Assembly (NCBI RefSeq): GCF_020886775.1
Contig: NZ_AP024525.1
Coordinates: 1,302,001 to 1,366,000 of the forward strand
Origin: Sinomonas cyclohexanicum
GTDB taxonomy: Bacteria; Actinomycetota; Actinomycetes; Actinomycetales; Micrococcaceae
Length of the DNA stretch: 64,000 nucleotides
Direction of reading: 5' to 3'
The notes beneath the pieces were generated by a model. It was not told where the DNA came from, ran no database searches, and saw only the letters and a list, made by a program, of their open reading frames with translations. The translations under genes were made by a program, and so were the position numbers. Position 1 is the stretch's first letter, and each line of letters begins with the position of its first letter. This document shows, piece after piece, positions 3,897-18,269 of this stretch.

Positions 3897-4918
3897 TTGC
3901 CCTCCTCCTTCTGCGGCCGCTCCACTGTGAGGGTCTCGGCGTCCGATCCGACACTGTCTTCGGCGAGGATCCCGGCGTCCTCCGTACCGACCACCGACTC
4001 CTCGTCTTGGGCGAGCTCTTGCTCGAGCTCCGCGACACCACCTGCGGCGCCGAGGTCTACGTCGTGGTGCGCCCCCAGGTATGCGTCGATGACCGCCTGG
4101 TCCTTCATGACCTCGGTGGGCGGCCCCTCGGCGACGACTTTGCCCTCCGCCATGACCACGACCCAGTCGGCGATGTGCCGGACCATGTGCATGTCGTGTT
4201 CAACGAACAGGACGGTCATGCCCTCGGCCTTGAGGTTCTTGACGTGGTCCAGGAGGCTCTGCGTCAGGGCGGGGTTGACGCCCGCCATGGGCTCATCGAG
4301 CATGACCAGCTTCGGATTCACCATGAGCGCACGGGCCATCTCGAGGAGCTTTCGCTGCCCGCCGGAGAGGGAAGCGGCGTAGTCGTCTCGCTTCGTGTCG
4401 AGCTTGAACTTGACCAGCAGGGATTCGGCCTGGTCGGTGATGTCCTTCTCGCGGTTGCCCCAGATGCCCTTGAACAGTGCATTGCGGAGCTTCTCGCCGG
4501 GTTGGGACGAGGCGCCGAGGCGCATGTTCTCGATGACGGTCAGCTTGCCCATGACCTTGGTCAGCTGGAACGTGCGGACCATCCCGAGCCGCGCGACCTT
4601 GTACGAGGACATGCCCGCCAGGTCGGTGCCCTCGAATTGCCACGTGCCGGTGTTCGGGGTGTCGAAGCCGGTCAGCAGGTTGAACAGGGTGGTCTTTCCC
4701 GCGCCGTTGGGGCCGATGAGGGCCGTGATCTTGTGGCGGGGAATCTCGAGATGCTCGACGTCGACGGCGTTGATGCCGCCGAACCGCCTGCTCACGTTGT
4801 CGGCCACGACGATCGGATCGCGCTTCTTGCATCCCGGGGCCGCGGGGCCCTCGGCGATGGGTCTGGAGTCCGTCATGTAGTCCACTGCGGACTCACCGGT
4901 GTTGCCTGTCTCGCTCAT
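3893..4918 (-). CDS. livG: Branched-chain amino acid-type ABC transporter ATP-binding protein LivG, extended
   Basis: Second ATPase of the transporter. Walker A is GPNGAGKT (69-76), signature LSGGQ is at 184-188, Walker B VMLDEP is near 205-210, and the LivG-type C-terminal segment with VFVEHDM-like VLFVEHDMHMV follows. The ATG overlaps the livM stop (ATGA at 4915-4918). The protein is 341 aa, against roughly 250-290 for most LivG proteins. The extra length is about 35 polar residues before the ATPase core and an acidic tail of about 55 residues (286-341) rich in Glu/Asp. The tail is in frame and ends next to livF, so it is part of the gene; its role is unknown. Confidence 0.9.
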   Translation of the reverse strand: MSETGNTGESAVDYMTDSRPIAEGPAAPGCKKRDPIVVADNVSRRFGGINAVDVEHLEIPRHKITALIGPNGAGKTTLFNLLTGFDTPNTGTWQFEGTDLAGMSSYKVARLGMVRTFQLTKVMGKLTVIENMRLGASSQPGEKLRNALFKGIWGNREKDITDQAESLLVKFKLDTKRDDYAASLSGGQRKLLEMARALMVNPKLVMLDEPMAGVNPALTQSLLDHVKNLKAEGMTVLFVEHDMHMVRHIADWVVVMAEGKVVAEGPPTEVMKDQAVIDAYLGAHHDVDLGAAGGVAELEQELAQDEESVVGTEDAGILAEDSVGSDAETLTVERPQKEEGK

Positions 4919-5883
4919 GAGAACGCGAGCTCCTTCTTGTTGCCGAACACGCCCTGCGGCCGGAAGATCATCAACAGCATGAGGGCCACGCCCACGAGGA
5001 TGTAGCGCAGCTGGCCGGCCTGGGTGGTGCTCAGGAACGGCAGCGCGCCGATCCCGATCAGGCCGTAGAGCACGTTCTGGGTCAGCGACAGCACGACCCA
5101 GAAGATCATGGCGCCCACGATCGGTCCGAGGACTGTGGACATGCCGCCGAGCAGGAGGCAGGTCCACAGGAAGAACGTGAACTCGGTGCCGTAGTTGGCC
5201 GGCTGCACCACGTCGCGGGGCAGCGTGAACACGAGCCCGGCGAGTGCGCCGAAGACACCGCCGATGATGAGGGCCTGCATCTTGTAGGCATAGACGTTCT
5301 TCCCGAGCGAGCGCACGGCCATCTCGTCCTCGCGGATGCCCTTGAGCACGCGGCCCCACGGGCTGCGCATGAGGAGCCAGACCGCGATCCCGAGGATGAG
5401 CACGAGGCCCCAGCCGAAGACTCGGAAGAAGAAGTCGTTGCTGCTGTAGCCGAGGTAGTCGCCCTCTGGGAACGGGTTGAGCCGCAGGAAGTCAGCTCGG
5501 ATGCCGGCGAGTCCGTTCGCGGAGCCGGTGACATCAGTGAGGGTGTTGGTCGTGACGACGTAGCGGATGATCTCCGCGGCGGCGATCGTCACGATCGCCA
5601 GGTAGTCGGCGCGCAGTCGCAGTGTCGGGATGCCGAGGAGGAGCGCGAAGATCGCCGCGGCAACGATGGCCACAATGAGGGCCAGCCAGAACGGGAACTG
5701 CAGGTGGATCGTCGACATGGCGAAGCCGTACGCGCCGACGGCGATGAAGCCGGCCTGCCCGAAGTTGAGCAGGCCCGAGTAGCCGAAGTGCACGGCGAGG
5801 CCGAGTGCGGCGAGGGCGTAGGCCGCCGTCGTCGGGCTGACGAGCTCGCCGAGCGCCTCCAAGAGAATCTGTCCGAAATCCAT
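4915..5883 (-). CDS. livM: Branched-chain amino acid-type ABC transporter permease LivM
   Basis: Integral membrane permease of 322 aa with about 8-10 hydrophobic segments and the LivM-type cytoplasmic loop around GRVLKGIREDEMAVRSLG, which contacts the ATPase pair. The ATG follows GGAG at a 6-nt spacing and lies 10 nt after the livH stop. Its last bases overlap the livG start. It forms the transmembrane pore together with LivH. Confidence 0.9.
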   Translation of the reverse strand: MDFGQILLEALGELVSPTTAAYALAALGLAVHFGYSGLLNFGQAGFIAVGAYGFAMSTIHLQFPFWLALIVAIVAAAIFALLLGIPTLRLRADYLAIVTIAAAEIIRYVVTTNTLTDVTGSANGLAGIRADFLRLNPFPEGDYLGYSSNDFFFRVFGWGLVLILGIAVWLLMRSPWGRVLKGIREDEMAVRSLGKNVYAYKMQALIIGGVFGALAGLVFTLPRDVVQPANYGTEFTFFLWTCLLLGGMSTVLGPIVGAMIFWVVLSLTQNVLYGLIGIGALPFLSTTQAGQLRYILVGVALMLLMIFRPQGVFGNKKELAFS

Positions 5884-5893
5884 GGCGGTCTCC

Positions 5894-7231
5894 TTAGCCC
5901 ACTCGCTCGCGACGGCCCAGGATTCCCTGCGGCCGGAAGAGCAGGACGAGGATCATGACGACCAGCGCCCCGACGTACTTGAGGTCGGACGTGAGCCCGA
6001 ACACCGTGGTCAGCTCCACGAAGATGCCCACGACCACGGAGCCGACGAGGGCACCGAAGACGGTTCCCAGTCCGCCCAGGGTGACGCCGGCGAAGATCAT
6101 GAGCAGGATCTGCTGGCCCATGTTGAAGGAGACACCCGGCCGGTAGTAGGCCCACAGGATGCCGCCGAGCGCTGCGAGGAAGCCGCCTGTGACCCACACG
6201 AGGCGGATGACGCGGTCGACGTCGATCCCGCTCGCCGCCGCGAGGGCCGGGTTGTCGGCCACCGCGCGGGTCGCCTTGCCGAGGCGCGTGCGCAGGAGTG
6301 CGAATCCGATCAGGAGGATGACGATCAGGGAGATGAGCAGCGACCACAGGTTGTTGGGCGAGATCTTGACGACCCCGAGGTCGATGTCGGTCGACTGGGA
6401 GTAGGGAAGCTGCTGCGTCGCCCCGCCGAAGAAGAACAGGATCACGTACCGCGCGGCGAGGGCGAGGCCGATGCTCACGATCATCATGGGCACGACGCCG
6501 GTCCCGCGCCGCCTCAGCGGCTTCCAGAGCCAGGCGTCCTGCGCCCAGCCGAACGCGACGCCGGCGGCGAGCCCGCCGATGACGGCGAGCCAGAACGGCG
6601 CCCCGACTGCGCTGAGCGAGAAGACGACGACGGCGCCGAGCGTGACCATCTCGCCGTGGGCGAAGTTGGTCAGGCCCGTGGTGCCGAAGATGAGGGAGAG
6701 GCCCACGGCGGAGAGGGCGAGCAGGAGGCCGAAGCTCAGGCCCGCCACGAGGCGGTTCAGGAGGCTGGTGAAGAAGCTCTCCTGGTGGACCACGATGCCG
6801 GCGCCGAACGCGAAGATCGTGCTCGCGTTCGAGGTCTGGCTGAACGTGACCGTCCGGGGATTCTCCTGGCCGTCCGCGAGCTTGACCCCCTCTGGGAGCG
6901 TCGACTCGTCGAGCGTGACCTTGTAGCTGCCCTGCGCGGGCACGGAGATGCTCCACGCTCCCGAGGCCGATGAGGTGGTGCTGCCGCTGAATCCATTGCC
7001 CTCAGCACTGATCTTGACGCCCTCGAGAGGCTGCCCGCCGTTGCGCAGGAAGCCCGAGATGGTGTTCTGGAACTGGGACTGGCTGGAATTAGGGCTGGGG
7101 CTGGGCGAGGTCGTCGCCTCTGCGGCCGGGGCGATTGCCAGGAGCACTGCAAGGATGGCGCCGATCAGGGCGCCTGCGGCCGCCAGCGCGCGTGGTACGC
7201 GTTGGCGGGCGGCCGGGGCTGTGCTGGTCAC
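5894..7231 (-). CDS. livH: LivH-type ABC permease with an N-terminal secreted Ig-like domain
   Basis: The C-terminal two thirds (about residues 145-445) is a LivH permease, including the GLTNFAHGEMVTLG segment typical of the family. Before it are a signal-peptide-like start (hydrophobic run ending near AEA, residues about 15-40) and an extracytoplasmic domain of about 100 residues. That domain contains SGFLRNGGQPLEGVKISAEG and looks like a carboxypeptidase-regulatory/Ig-like beta-sandwich. Standard LivH proteins (about 290-310 aa) lack it. I chose GTG at 7229-7231 because GGAGG sits 6 nt upstream; an earlier in-frame ATG at 7315 would put 28 odd residues before the signal peptide. First gene of the operon. 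Confidence 0.85.
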   Translation of the reverse strand: MTSTAPAARQRVPRALAAAGALIGAILAVLLAIAPAAEATTSPSPSPNSSQSQFQNTISGFLRNGGQPLEGVKISAEGNGFSGSTTSSASGAWSISVPAQGSYKVTLDESTLPEGVKLADGQENPRTVTFSQTSNASTIFAFGAGIVVHQESFFTSLLNRLVAGLSFGLLLALSAVGLSLIFGTTGLTNFAHGEMVTLGAVVVFSLSAVGAPFWLAVIGGLAAGVAFGWAQDAWLWKPLRRRGTGVVPMMIVSIGLALAARYVILFFFGGATQQLPYSQSTDIDLGVVKISPNNLWSLLISLIVILLIGFALLRTRLGKATRAVADNPALAAASGIDVDRVIRLVWVTGGFLAALGGILWAYYRPGVSFNMGQQILLMIFAGVTLGGLGTVFGALVGSVVVGIFVELTTVFGLTSDLKYVGALVVMILVLLFRPQGILGRRERVG

Positions 7232-15755: not shown

Positions 15756-16370
15756 GTGCGAGCGCCGGGGTCGACGAACGAGCTCGCGGGGCGCGCCCGC
15801 GCGGGGCTCGCCACCATGACGGCGGTCACGGTGGTGCTGTACGTGATCCAGCTGGTGAACATGACAACCTTCGGACTGCTGTCGAGGACGTTCGGCATCC
15901 GCCCGCGTGACGTGGGCAGCCTCCCCGACATCCTGACCTCCCCGCTCGTACACGACTCGTCGGGCTGGGGGCATCTCCTGGCCAACACGCTGCCGCTCTT
16001 CGTCTTTGGATTCCTGGCGTTCCTGGCCGGGCTGAGGCAGTTCCTCACGGCCGTGGCGCTGTCGTGGCTGGGGTCGGGGGTCGGCGTGTGGGTGTTCGGC
16101 GGGAGCCTTCTCGGCTACCCCTCCGTGACCGTCGGCGCGTCCGGTGTGATCTTCGGCCTCTTCGGCTTCCTCTTGGTCCGGGGCTTCCTGAACCGCAGCT
16201 GGTGGCAGATCCTCCTCGCGCTCGTGCTGTTCGCCGCGTACGGGGGCGTGCTCCTGGGGGTGCTGCCAAACGTGGGCCGCGGCATCTCATGGCAGGCGCA
16301 CCTGTTCGGCCTCGCGGGAGGGGTTGTCGCGGCCGTCCTCCTGCGGCCCAGGGGCCGGGTCGCCACCTAG
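15756..16370 (+). CDS. Rhomboid-family intramembrane serine protease
   Basis: A 204-aa membrane protein with the rhomboid catalytic dyad: Ser129 in GASG (127-130) and His182 in the last helix (WQAHLFGLAGG). The oxyanion-side HLLAN motif (73-77) is also present. Six hydrophobic segments fit the minimal bacterial rhomboid core. GTG start 12 nt after ilvA with no clear ribosome site, so it may be translated by coupling. The substrate is unknown. Confidence 0.88.
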   Translation: MRAPGSTNELAGRARAGLATMTAVTVVLYVIQLVNMTTFGLLSRTFGIRPRDVGSLPDILTSPLVHDSSGWGHLLANTLPLFVFGFLAFLAGLRQFLTAVALSWLGSGVGVWVFGGSLLGYPSVTVGASGVIFGLFGFLLVRGFLNRSWWQILLALVLFAAYGGVLLGVLPNVGRGISWQAHLFGLAGGVVAAVLLRPRGRVAT

Positions 16371-16443
16371 CGGCACGAGCATGCCCAGCTACTTTAGTCC
16401 AGTCACTTGATTAATCGGCTCGGCGGGCGCATCGTCGATGAAT

Positions 16444-16456
16444 GGGGAGAGTCCCC
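16444..16456 (+). promoter_or_regulatory. Small stem-loop before the RiPP precursor
   Basis: GGGGA-GAG-TCCCC forms a 5-bp hairpin ending 9 nt before the precursor Shine-Dalgarno AGAAGGAG (16466-16473). The rest of the 109-bp gap 16371-16479 has an AT-rich stretch (ACTTGATTAATC near 16405-16416) that may hold the promoter, but I cannot assign hexamers. Confidence 0.3.
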
Positions 16457-16479
16457 GAACCATCGAGAAGGAGAATGCC

Positions 16480-16731
16480 ATGGCCATCGACAACACTCCC
16501 GGCACCCGCTACGACATCGGCAAGGACAACGAGCTCGTCCCGACCGTCTGGCCGTTCAAGCTCGAGTGGATGGAGTTCACCGGACCTGAGGGCCTCGACA
16601 AGTGGGAAGAAGCCATGCGCACCAAGGTCGGGCTCACCATCGACGCGAAGATGTACAAGCCGGGGTGCGCCACCATCTCCGGATCCGGTGACGGCTGGGA
16701 CGACTGCGACTACTGGGGGAACGGCTGCTGA
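16480..16731 (+). CDS. Probable graspetide (ATP-grasp-modified) RiPP precursor peptide
   Basis: An 83-aa peptide directly before an ATP-grasp ligase of the graspetide type. The start ATG has an ideal AGAAGGAG 6 nt upstream. The leader carries VWPFKLEWMEF (23-33), resembling the PFxLxW-type recognition motif seen in leaders of ATP-grasp peptides. After a helical, charged segment the sequence changes at about residue 60 to a Gly/Asp/Cys-rich tail: Cys63, Thr65, Ser67 and Ser69 come first, Asp71, Asp74, Asp75 and Asp77 follow, then Cys76 and the final Cys83. Hydroxyl side chains preceding acidic ones fit hairpin-like ester crosslinks between Ser/Thr and Asp. Three Cys residues are unusual for this class. 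The assignment rests on context, leader motif and core composition. Confidence 0.72.
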   Translation: MAIDNTPGTRYDIGKDNELVPTVWPFKLEWMEFTGPEGLDKWEEAMRTKVGLTIDAKMYKPGCATISGSGDGWDDCDYWGNGC

Positions 16732-16732
16732 C

Positions 16733-17665
16733 GTGGCCCACATCGGCATCCTGACCCAGTCTGGAGACCTCCACGCGGAGCTCGCCGCACACTGGGTCGA
16801 GCAGGCCGGTGGGCGGGCATCGCTGATCTATGCGGACCGGGTCCCGCAGAGCGGGGGGATCAGCTGGGCGTCGTCGGCCCCGGATCGCGCGCGCCTCGAC
16901 GCGGCAGACGGCCCGATCAGCCCAGACCAGCTCGACGTCCTCTGGTGGCGGCGCGTCGGCCGGCCCACGGTCCCCGACGCGGTGAGCGACCCGGCTGCGA
17001 GAACGGTCGTCGCCAACGAGGCTCGAGACGCCGTCCTCGGCTGCCTCCGGGCGGGCTTCAGAGGACGGTGGGTCAGCGACCCCGATGCGACACGCCGCGC
17101 TGAGCTCAAGCTCGTCCAGCTCCGCGCGGCGCTGCGCGTCGGCCTGAGGGTCCCCCGCACCCTCGTGAGTCAGATCCCCTCTGACATCCGGGAGTTCTGC
17201 GCCGAGCTGGGCGGGAGGATGGTCGTCAAGCCTGTTGCGAGCACGATGGACATCCCGCTCCGGGCCGGCGTCCTCACCGAGGACACCCTTCCGGCTGACC
17301 GGGAGCTGGCCCTGGTCCCCGCCATCTACCAGGAACTCGTCCCCGGCGACGTCCATCTCCGGGCGTGCACGTGGGGGAGCACCGTCGTGGTGGGCACGAT
17401 CAGCTCGGACCTCATGGACTGGCGCACCGACGTGGCCCCGCGCGTCGGAACGGGGCAGCTGGGCGGGGGGACCGCCGCCCAGCTCACGGCGCTCAACGCC
17501 CACCTCGGGCTCGCGATGGGCATCTCCGACCTCAAGCCCGCGCCCGACGGCGGGCCGCCCTACTGGCTCGAGGTCAACCCCCAGGGGCAGTTCCTCTTCC
17601 TCGAAGGGCTGGGAGGGCCGGAGGTGGCGCGCAGCTTCGCGCGCTTCCTCCTGGACTGCGCCTGA
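16733..17665 (+). CDS. ATP-grasp peptide ligase (graspetide maturase, MvdC/MvdD-like)
   Basis: A 310-aa ATP-grasp enzyme expected to activate acidic side chains of the precursor and join them to Ser/Thr/Lys, forming macrolactones or lactams. Features include LDVLWWRRVGRP (68-78), typical of MvdD-type ligases, KLVQLRAALRVGLRVPRTL (126-144), nucleotide Lys166 in MVVKP, the peptide-ligase motif YQELVPGDVHLR (199-210), and metal ligands Glu280/Asn282 in WLEVNPQGQ. The GTG is 1 nt after the precursor stop, so the two genes are surely one unit. No methyltransferase, protease or exporter lies beside them; a hairpin (17698-17738) closes the unit. Confidence 0.85.
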   Translation: MAHIGILTQSGDLHAELAAHWVEQAGGRASLIYADRVPQSGGISWASSAPDRARLDAADGPISPDQLDVLWWRRVGRPTVPDAVSDPAARTVVANEARDAVLGCLRAGFRGRWVSDPDATRRAELKLVQLRAALRVGLRVPRTLVSQIPSDIREFCAELGGRMVVKPVASTMDIPLRAGVLTEDTLPADRELALVPAIYQELVPGDVHLRACTWGSTVVVGTISSDLMDWRTDVAPRVGTGQLGGGTAAQLTALNAHLGLAMGISDLKPAPDGGPPYWLEVNPQGQFLFLEGLGGPEVARSFARFLLDCA

Positions 17666-17697
17666 GGCCCTGCTGGGCCGATGTGGGCGGATGAACG

Positions 17698-17738
17698 ACG
17701 ACGGCGCCGCTCACCACTGAGGTGGGCGGCGCCGTCGT
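17698..17738. terminator. Bidirectional hairpin between the RiPP locus and greA
   Basis: An 18-bp stem with one G-T pair and a 5-nt loop lies between the ends of the convergent ATP-grasp (+) and greA (-) genes. It has the shared ACGACGGC...GCCGTCGT outer stem. Confidence 0.85.
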
Positions 17739-17771: not shown

Positions 17772-18269
17772 TCAGCCGTTGTAGGGCGTAGCCGAGATGA
17801 TCTCGACCTCGATCTGCTTCCCGTTCGGGGCGGTGTAGGAGAGCTTGTCGCCCTGCTTGTGGCCCACGATCGCGGAGCCGAGCGGGGACTTCTCGCTGAA
17901 CACGTCCATGTCCGCGCCGGACTCGGCGATCTCGCGGGAGCCGAGGAGGAAGCGCTCCTCCTCGCCGGCGATCTTCGCCACGACGAGCATGCCCGGCTCG
18001 ACGACGCCGTCGTCCGCGGGCTTCTCGCCCACCTGTGCGTTGCGCAGGAGGTCGGTCAGCTGGCGGATGCGGGCCTCGATCTTGCCCTGCTCCTCCTTGG
18101 CGGCGTGGTAGCCGCCGTTCTCCTTGAGGTCGCCCTCCTGCCGGGCGGCCTCGATCTTCTCGACGATCTCATGACGGCCGGGGCCCGAGAGGTGGTCCAG
18201 CTCAGCCTTGAGACGGTCGTACGCCTCCTGCGTGAGCCAGGCGCCGCCCTGATGGGTCGTGGTGGACAT
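17772..18269 (-). CDS. greA: Transcription elongation factor GreA
   Basis: Rescues backtracked RNA polymerase by stimulating transcript cleavage. The N-terminal coiled coil carries the tip motif AARQEGDLKENGGYHAAKEEQ, with its catalytic acidic residues (Asp/Glu), and the C-terminal FKBP-like domain holds SPLGSAIVGHKQGD. Length 165 aa is typical. It has its own promoter at 18390-18418 and a structured leader of about 114 nt. Convergent with the graspetide locus. In M. tuberculosis the neighbouring genes are in the same order (Rv1080c greA, Rv1081c, Rv1082 mca). Confidence 0.95.
   Translation of the reverse strand: MSTTTHQGGAWLTQEAYDRLKAELDHLSGPGRHEIVEKIEAARQEGDLKENGGYHAAKEEQGKIEARIRQLTDLLRNAQVGEKPADDGVVEPGMLVVAKIAGEEERFLLGSREIAESGADMDVFSEKSPLGSAIVGHKQGDKLSYTAPNGKQIEVEIISATPYNG

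Follow-up and report, generated by a model that had tools for sequence, protein, structure and literature searches.

A probable two-gene graspetide cassette, apparently acquired horizontally, in Sinomonas cyclohexanicum

The gene pair and its insertion site

The window, the 64,000-nucleotide stretch of Sinomonas cyclohexanicum DNA analysed here, contains a gene for a short peptide followed, after a gap of 1 nt, by a gene for an ATP-grasp ligase (Table 1). A first-pass annotation had described an 83-aa peptide with a ribosome site, a ligase 1 nt further on, and a peptide tail carrying Cys63, Thr65, Ser67, Ser69, Asp71, Asp74, Asp75, Cys76, Asp77 and Cys83; all of these coordinates and residues were confirmed in the window sequence. 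Both genes have alternative in-frame starts (16438 for the precursor, giving 97 aa, and a GTG at 16688 for the ligase), but the recurrence of the 1-nt arrangement in two relatives, L001 and L057, supports the starts chosen. Scans of the locus for promoters and for T-tailed terminators found none.

Table 1. Coordinates of the gene pair, its predicted parts and its neighbours in the window
Feature	Position	Strand	Remarks
Rhomboid-family gene	15756-16370		Pfam 6.1e-22; ends 110 bp upstream of the precursor
Inserted segment without counterpart at the site in congeners	16371-17697	.	From the rhomboid stop to the inverted repeat; right edge approximate
Ribosome-binding site AAGGAG	16468-16473	+	6-nt spacer to the ATG
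Precursor peptide gene, 83 aa	16480-16731	+	ATG at 16480, stop 16729-16731
Leader segment P21-T-V-W-P-F26	16540-16557	+	P21 invariant, 13/13
Leader segment L39-D-K-W42-E43	16594-16608	+	W42 and E43 13/13, L39 12/13; may form a helix
Predicted core, residues 63-83 (CATISGSGDGWDDCDYWGNGC)	16666-16728	+	Putative core start after Pro61-Gly62
ATP-grasp graspetide-synthetase-like ligase, 310 aa	16733-17665	+	GTG start, stop 17663-17665
GC-rich inverted repeat	17698-17738	.	At the same site in most congener junctions printed
Putative greA	17772-18269	opposite to the gene pair	Named from its sequence

The cassette lies as an insertion of ~1.3 kb between the rhomboid gene and the gene that, from its sequence, we take to be greA. 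The site is empty in all 14 other genomes of the genus that were examined: in ten of them the rhomboid gene stands next to greA, the aligned ends being 20 to 170 bp apart, and in the other four ilvA is followed by greA with no rhomboid detected. In the window, the rhomboid stop and the end of greA are 1401 bp apart, which leaves about 1.3 kb extra. A gain at the window site is the simplest reading of these comparisons, and the failure to detect a rhomboid between ilvA and greA in four of the 14 congeners indicates that gains or losses have occurred here more than once. The inverted repeat beyond the ligase was seen by eye in seven of the eight congener junctions printed, L087 being the one lacking it; since most of these junctions have it, it lies outside the cassette, and is perhaps a resident terminator. 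Comparison of the junctions for mobile-element ends (shared words of 8 to 14 bases) returned only one 8-bp inverted match, and with a GC content of 0.698 the insert is unremarkable within the window. The cassettes of relatives sit in differing neighbourhoods. As judged from these comparisons, the cassette was apparently acquired horizontally.

Two other roles for genes at the site were considered and rejected. The first-pass annotation had found no protease at the locus; a rhomboid protease gene does end close upstream, but this gene is resident in the genus, and its presence beside greA in ten of the 14 cassette-free congeners led us to reject it as the leader peptidase of the system. A defence system was rejected likewise, PADLOC giving no match.

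Relatives of the precursor and of the ligase

Counting that of the window, 13 distinct peptide-ligase pairs were found in four families of Actinomycetota, the 12 further pairs lying in three families other than that of the window; one divergent relative, L022, was found besides. A scan of genome contigs gave L001, from Microbacterium bovistercoris, in which the ligase is 70% identical, the core nearly identical and the 1-nt arrangement kept. Taxa were mostly sampled, with 1997 genomes in all, repeats counted. Ligase searches matched four of 295 genomes in the window's own family (the window and three weak matches), 15 of 396 in the order and, at 1e-20, 78 of 394 in the class. The DNA 5' of the ligase was read at 16 loci from the earlier ligase matches and at 30 loci returned by the class search, the weak matches L003, L004, L005, L017, L018 and L021 being left out of the locus comparison. 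Among the loci read, L006, L007, L024 and L025 bear the same core, L022, which came from the plasmid search, has a similar leader with another core, and at the others the ORFs are different or none could be recognised as such a precursor.

A degenerate DNA pattern for the core matched 3 of 5, 2 of 247, 5 of 186 and 5 of 250 genomes (the last set including the three of the first), 15 matches representing 12 distinct genomes, and the reversed-pattern control gave none among the matches listed. Repeat copies of the window (L002, L023, L091) and of relatives already counted (L054, L055, L056, L059, L061) were dropped. Viral contigs contained no match for the core pattern or for the ligase profile, phages gave one weak ligase match, and a plasmid collection had no match for the precursor. 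The ligase matched 34 records of that collection, all at less than 60% identity, of which L022 was the sole one examined.

The 13 precursors range from 58 to 99 aa, and each closes with [T/S]-x-S-G-[S/C]-x-x-G-W-D-D-C-D and a further 1-6 residues. Their leaders are very dissimilar and were sorted by eye into four kinds, with Pro21, Trp42 and Glu43 (window numbering) invariant and Leu39 kept in 12 of 13. The PFKLEW segment that had been singled out in the leader is not conserved as such, but it overlaps PTVWPF (21-26). By eye, this latter segment of the window precursor fits the published leader motif Phhx(1,2)h, reported for about half of graspetide precursors by Makarova and colleagues (PMC8939145).

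The arrangement of Ser/Thr ahead of Asp in the tail, on which the first-pass annotation had built its proposal, is kept in the homologues. Position 65, which lies outside the DNA search pattern, is Thr or Ser in every precursor; position 67, part of that pattern, is Ser in every one; position 69 is Ser except in L006, where it is Cys; and Asp71 is present in 12, with Gly in L001. Cys76 is invariant (13/13) between Asp75 and Asp77. In the window precursor the candidate donors are thus T65, S67 and S69, and the candidate acceptors D74, D75 and D77. Seven pairs were found with the core pattern itself, so that their conservation at positions 67-77 is partly circular, while L001, L006, L007, L024 and L025 were found by ligase similarity and for these the core conservation is not circular. 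No homologue among the 13 lacks the conserved Ser/Thr and Asp positions.

The same tail invites another interpretation, that S-G-S-x-D-G-W-D-D-C-D is an acidic metal-binding loop tuned by the ligase. The S-x-S-x-D-G spacing of the peptide resembles positions 1, 3, 5 and 6 of an EF-hand loop, and an invariant Cys amid Asp residues would suit metal binding as well. However, the fifth loop position (residue 71) is Gly in L001, the twelfth varies among Tyr, Glu, Gln and Ala, and metal binding alone leaves the adjacent ATP-grasp gene unexplained; we consider this interpretation very unlikely.

NCBIfam gave no credible family match for any of the 13 precursors, one chance-level match reaching 0.17. 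This lack of a match is all that was found to speak for a spurious small ORF that happens to lie beside an unrelated ATP-grasp gene, an explanation to which we assign next to no probability given the conserved core, the low pN/pS, the single ligase clade and the co-occurrence of the two genes described below. Uncorrected pN/pS values for 11 non-independent precursor pairs run from 0.18 to 0.60, and from these the homologues look to be under purifying selection. Such low values, coupled with core-pattern matches against a reversed control that had none among the matches listed, indicate that the gene pair is more than chance.

Comparison of the window ligase with graspetide families, proposed at the outset as a check, gave matches to the NCBIfam models TIGR04187 (3.5e-34), MvdC (4.8e-33) and MvdD (6e-23), all far below the curated cut-offs (for TIGR04187, GRASP_SAV_5884, 118.4 bits versus 350). 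The ligase had been credited with MvdD-type motifs; it is better described as MvdC/MvdD/TIGR04187-like, with scores under the curated cut-offs. These three models are matched by 13 of 13 ligases, with best values of 9e-53 for TIGR04187 and 4.2e-45 for MvdC. The window ligase scores below threshold for Pfam's MvdD pre-ATP-grasp domain (17.5 versus 27 bits), which ten of the 13 match at 0.01 or better. The closest solved structures by sequence are 5ig8 (4.6e-23), 7m4s (AMdnB, 8e-18), 9bou (4.4e-16), 5ig9 (9e-13) and 7drm (1.9e-7); 5ig8 and 5ig9, titled only 'ATP grasp ligase', we take to be microviridin ligases. Invariant in all 13 ligases are K126, K166, Q200-E201, H208, R210, D229-W230-R231, D266, K268, E280 and N282; in the alignments to the five structures E-x-N was aligned in all and DWR in three. 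A search of the window's own genome with its ligase gave no second match at E 0.001. An AlphaFold model of the ligase made from two sequences had a mean pLDDT of 34 and was not used.

Weaker matches of the ligases raise the possibility of a RimK-kind enzyme, one that adds residues to an Asp-rich tail and makes no rings: rimK_fam is weakly matched by ten of 13 (best 1.7e-10), Pfam RimK by two (best 0.0018), and the substrate tail is acidic. The MvdC and TIGR04187 matches are nevertheless tens of orders of magnitude stronger than those to rimK_fam and cover most of the protein, and a tail-extending ligase would have no need of the conserved Ser/Thr at 65 and 67 or Ser/Cys at 69, making such an activity highly improbable.

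A tree of 41 ligases, the 13 and 28 others chosen among the remaining matches, placed the 13 core-linked ligases and L022 (Streptomyces) in one clade with support 100/98. L022 groups beside members of one family of relatives, f35 (85/86), and consequently the 13 core-bearing ligases are not one side of a branch. Of six clade relatives brought in by ligase similarity alone, five have the core; the core of L022 is very different, and the clade therefore does not strictly fix the core. No such core was seen in the DNA read around five of the nearest ligases outside the clade in the phylum sample (L092, L093, L094, L096 and L097). A ligase-profile search of 19 genomes, at E up to 1e-30, detected the ligase in all ten core-positive genomes and in none of the nine core-negative ones, these being nine congeners without the core, one of them merely 74% complete. 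A ligase ORF follows the core-bearing precursor at all 13 loci, so that homologues standing apart from an ATP-grasp gene were not encountered among them. On these comparisons, precursor and ligase are inherited as a unit and constitute one family. The graspetide proposal is thereby upheld in those parts open to sequence comparison: conserved Ser/Thr and Asp positions, ligase adjacency, a common clade and co-occurrence.

Genes shared beside the cassette were compared as clusters of ORFs of at least 90 aa from the 13 loci (bits >70, first 40 clusters). Among the clusters listed, and setting aside other-frame overlaps of the cassette and close-relative pairs, an exporter gene of f35 is the only flanking gene common to at least three loci. 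It encodes an ABC exporter with fused membrane and ATPase parts and lies directly 3' of the ligase in all five f35 loci (L067, L068, L069, L074 and L075); in L067, the only one on which Pfam was run for it, there is a four-base overlap between its GTG and the stop of the ligase. The remaining eight ligases showed no ORF of this sort next to them. The statement that the locus has no exporter thus holds for the window, but five relatives carry one as a third gene, which supports a secreted product. A homologue of this exporter is encoded elsewhere in the window genome (48% identity over query residues 3-568), but it is only a candidate because the search returned 83 ABC-type matches. Also in the exporter cluster is an opposite-strand ORF of L071 that lies 3.7-5.4 kb upstream. 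A few matches link just two loci at a distance from the cassette, for example one about 8-9 kb upstream in the window with L001; we read all of these as unrelated. In the flanks of the seven non-f35 relatives, genes were picked out with a GC3 heuristic, and their names were assigned by eye.

Proposed mechanism and the place of cysteine

The locus is very probably a stand-alone, compact, horizontally acquired graspetide (ATP-grasp RiPP) cassette, an assessment that rests on sequence and takes in the mechanism proposed here. According to the part of PMC13097080 covered, graspetide ligases phosphorylate an Asp or Glu carboxylate, which is then attacked by a Ser, Thr or Lys side chain. In our model, the ligase would bind the leader, with the Pro21 segment and the Leu39-x-x-Trp42-Glu43 stretch as the probable contacts, phosphorylate Asp carboxylates of the core and join them to Ser/Thr hydroxyls. 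Most likely three macrolactones would form, linking Thr65, Ser67 and Ser69 to Asp74, Asp75 and Asp77, ring number and connectivity both being predictions; three conserved donors and three conserved acceptors make this the simplest outcome, as in rosaritide. Cleavage would probably follow Pro61-Gly62. Export would fall to host proteins, and in the one family of relatives probably to the dedicated ABC exporter.

The invariant Cys76 probably has an essential role. In the lineage of the window, a Cys63-Cys83 disulfide may staple the ring system. The precursors of the window, L001, L057 and L007 have counterparts of both residues, and the other nine have neither; on the ligase tree the pair is present in two lineages and absent from two, so that the pairing is only suggestive.

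Cysteine might also be built into the ring chemistry more broadly, replacing Ser at donor positions, standing amid the acceptors as Cys76 and bracketing the core as Cys63 and Cys83. We hold this to be unlikely; if true, the mature product would have native thioester links or disulfide-locked esters. The narrower idea that Cys serves as a ring donor in natural thioesters, with Cys76 or another Cys as ring atoms and not in a disulfide, is rather more doubtful still. In its favour, the position of Ser69 is Cys in L006, that of Ser67 is Cys in L022 in a weak alignment, and published ligases have made thioesters from substituted substrates, as reported in parts of PMC13097080 and PMC12291112. All three donor positions of the window are nonetheless Thr/Ser, the L022 alignment is weak, and paired Cys is equally explained by a disulfide. 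The passages of PMC13097080, PMC12291112 and PMC10787088 that were covered describe thioesters in graspetides only as non-native or engineered products and contain no native Cys-built graspetide.

Likeness to known systems and other precursor types

The gene pair resembles the TIGR04187/MvdC/MvdD systems of omega-ester peptides in having a short precursor adjoining an ATP-grasp ligase, a C-terminal core with Ser/Thr before Asp, and a leader with a conserved Pro then hydrophobic residues. It differs from them in a ligase far under the cut-offs and in a core of the form T-x-S-x-S-x4-D-D-x-D, whose final two Asp flank an invariant Cys. Microviridins are made from MdnA with its two ligases. The microviridin-type 7m4s is among the nearest solved structures, whereas the cassette has one ligase, no Lys in the predicted core and no PFFARFL, the microviridin leader motif given in the part of PMC8939145 covered.

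Rosaritide (group 21, Micromonospora rosaria), in the account taken from PMC13097080 in part, has three macrolactones that link three Ser/Thr (Ser8, Ser9, Thr11) to three later Asp (Asp22, Asp24, Asp26), with a TIGR04187 ligase as the ring-forming enzyme; its biosynthesis depends on a PPIase-like partner protein, and its locus includes a PCAT gene. Its spacing differs from that of the window peptide, and both partner and PCAT gene are absent from the window cassette; the insertion has no room for a gene of the former kind.

The same source, in the part covered, puts on record ~21,600 predicted graspetides in 24 original groups and 19 new ones. A search of published text for the core motif strings returned unrelated papers only, group consensus sequences sitting in figures and supplements outside that search, and the subfamily may already be listed without comment among published groups 1-43. 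It is sparse, and its ring-forming segment matches no pattern in the literature text covered.

What the cassettes offer is a compact, apparently transferable ring-forming system of two genes in which one short core stands behind four dissimilar leader kinds, a setting that lends itself to testing which leader features a graspetide ligase reads and what it demands of the core. With an invariant Cys among the candidate acceptor Asp residues and, in one or two relatives, Cys at donor positions, it becomes directly testable whether graspetides can have native thioesters or a disulfide lock.

L022, on a plasmid of Streptomyces sp. NBC_00158 (NZ_CP108162.1), shares the ligase clade and is alike in its leader (PPVVF, AWE) and in a precursor (4741-4989) that overlaps the start of the ligase (4989-6044); it differs in a Cys-rich core (CETGCGPNCCCDKCDAA) without GWDDCD. 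A lantibiotic dehydratase gene begins about 4 kb downstream, and the plasmid collection held no second precursor like it.

Other loci read during the search have different ORFs ahead of the ligase. In L008, L010, L011, L012 and L092 this is a long ORF that by eye is zincin metalloprotease-like, with HExxH segments and in some cases a repetitive charged tail, and in L009 it appears by eye to be trypsin-like; these are perhaps tail-modified proteases or protease-precursor fusions. Three f22 genomes (L029, L032, L037) have a different conserved protein here, 149-159 aa long and with S-D-D-G-x-x-x-D-S-L-D at its end; it is probably a long-leader graspetide precursor of another type, and its tail faintly resembles the SDDGWDDCD of f17 peptides. 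In f35, small ORFs with ELDESAL-x-GI-[SN]-GG precede the ligase in L039, L040, L045, L047 and L049, two each in L047 and L049, so that one ligase perhaps serves several precursors, with cleavage at GG.
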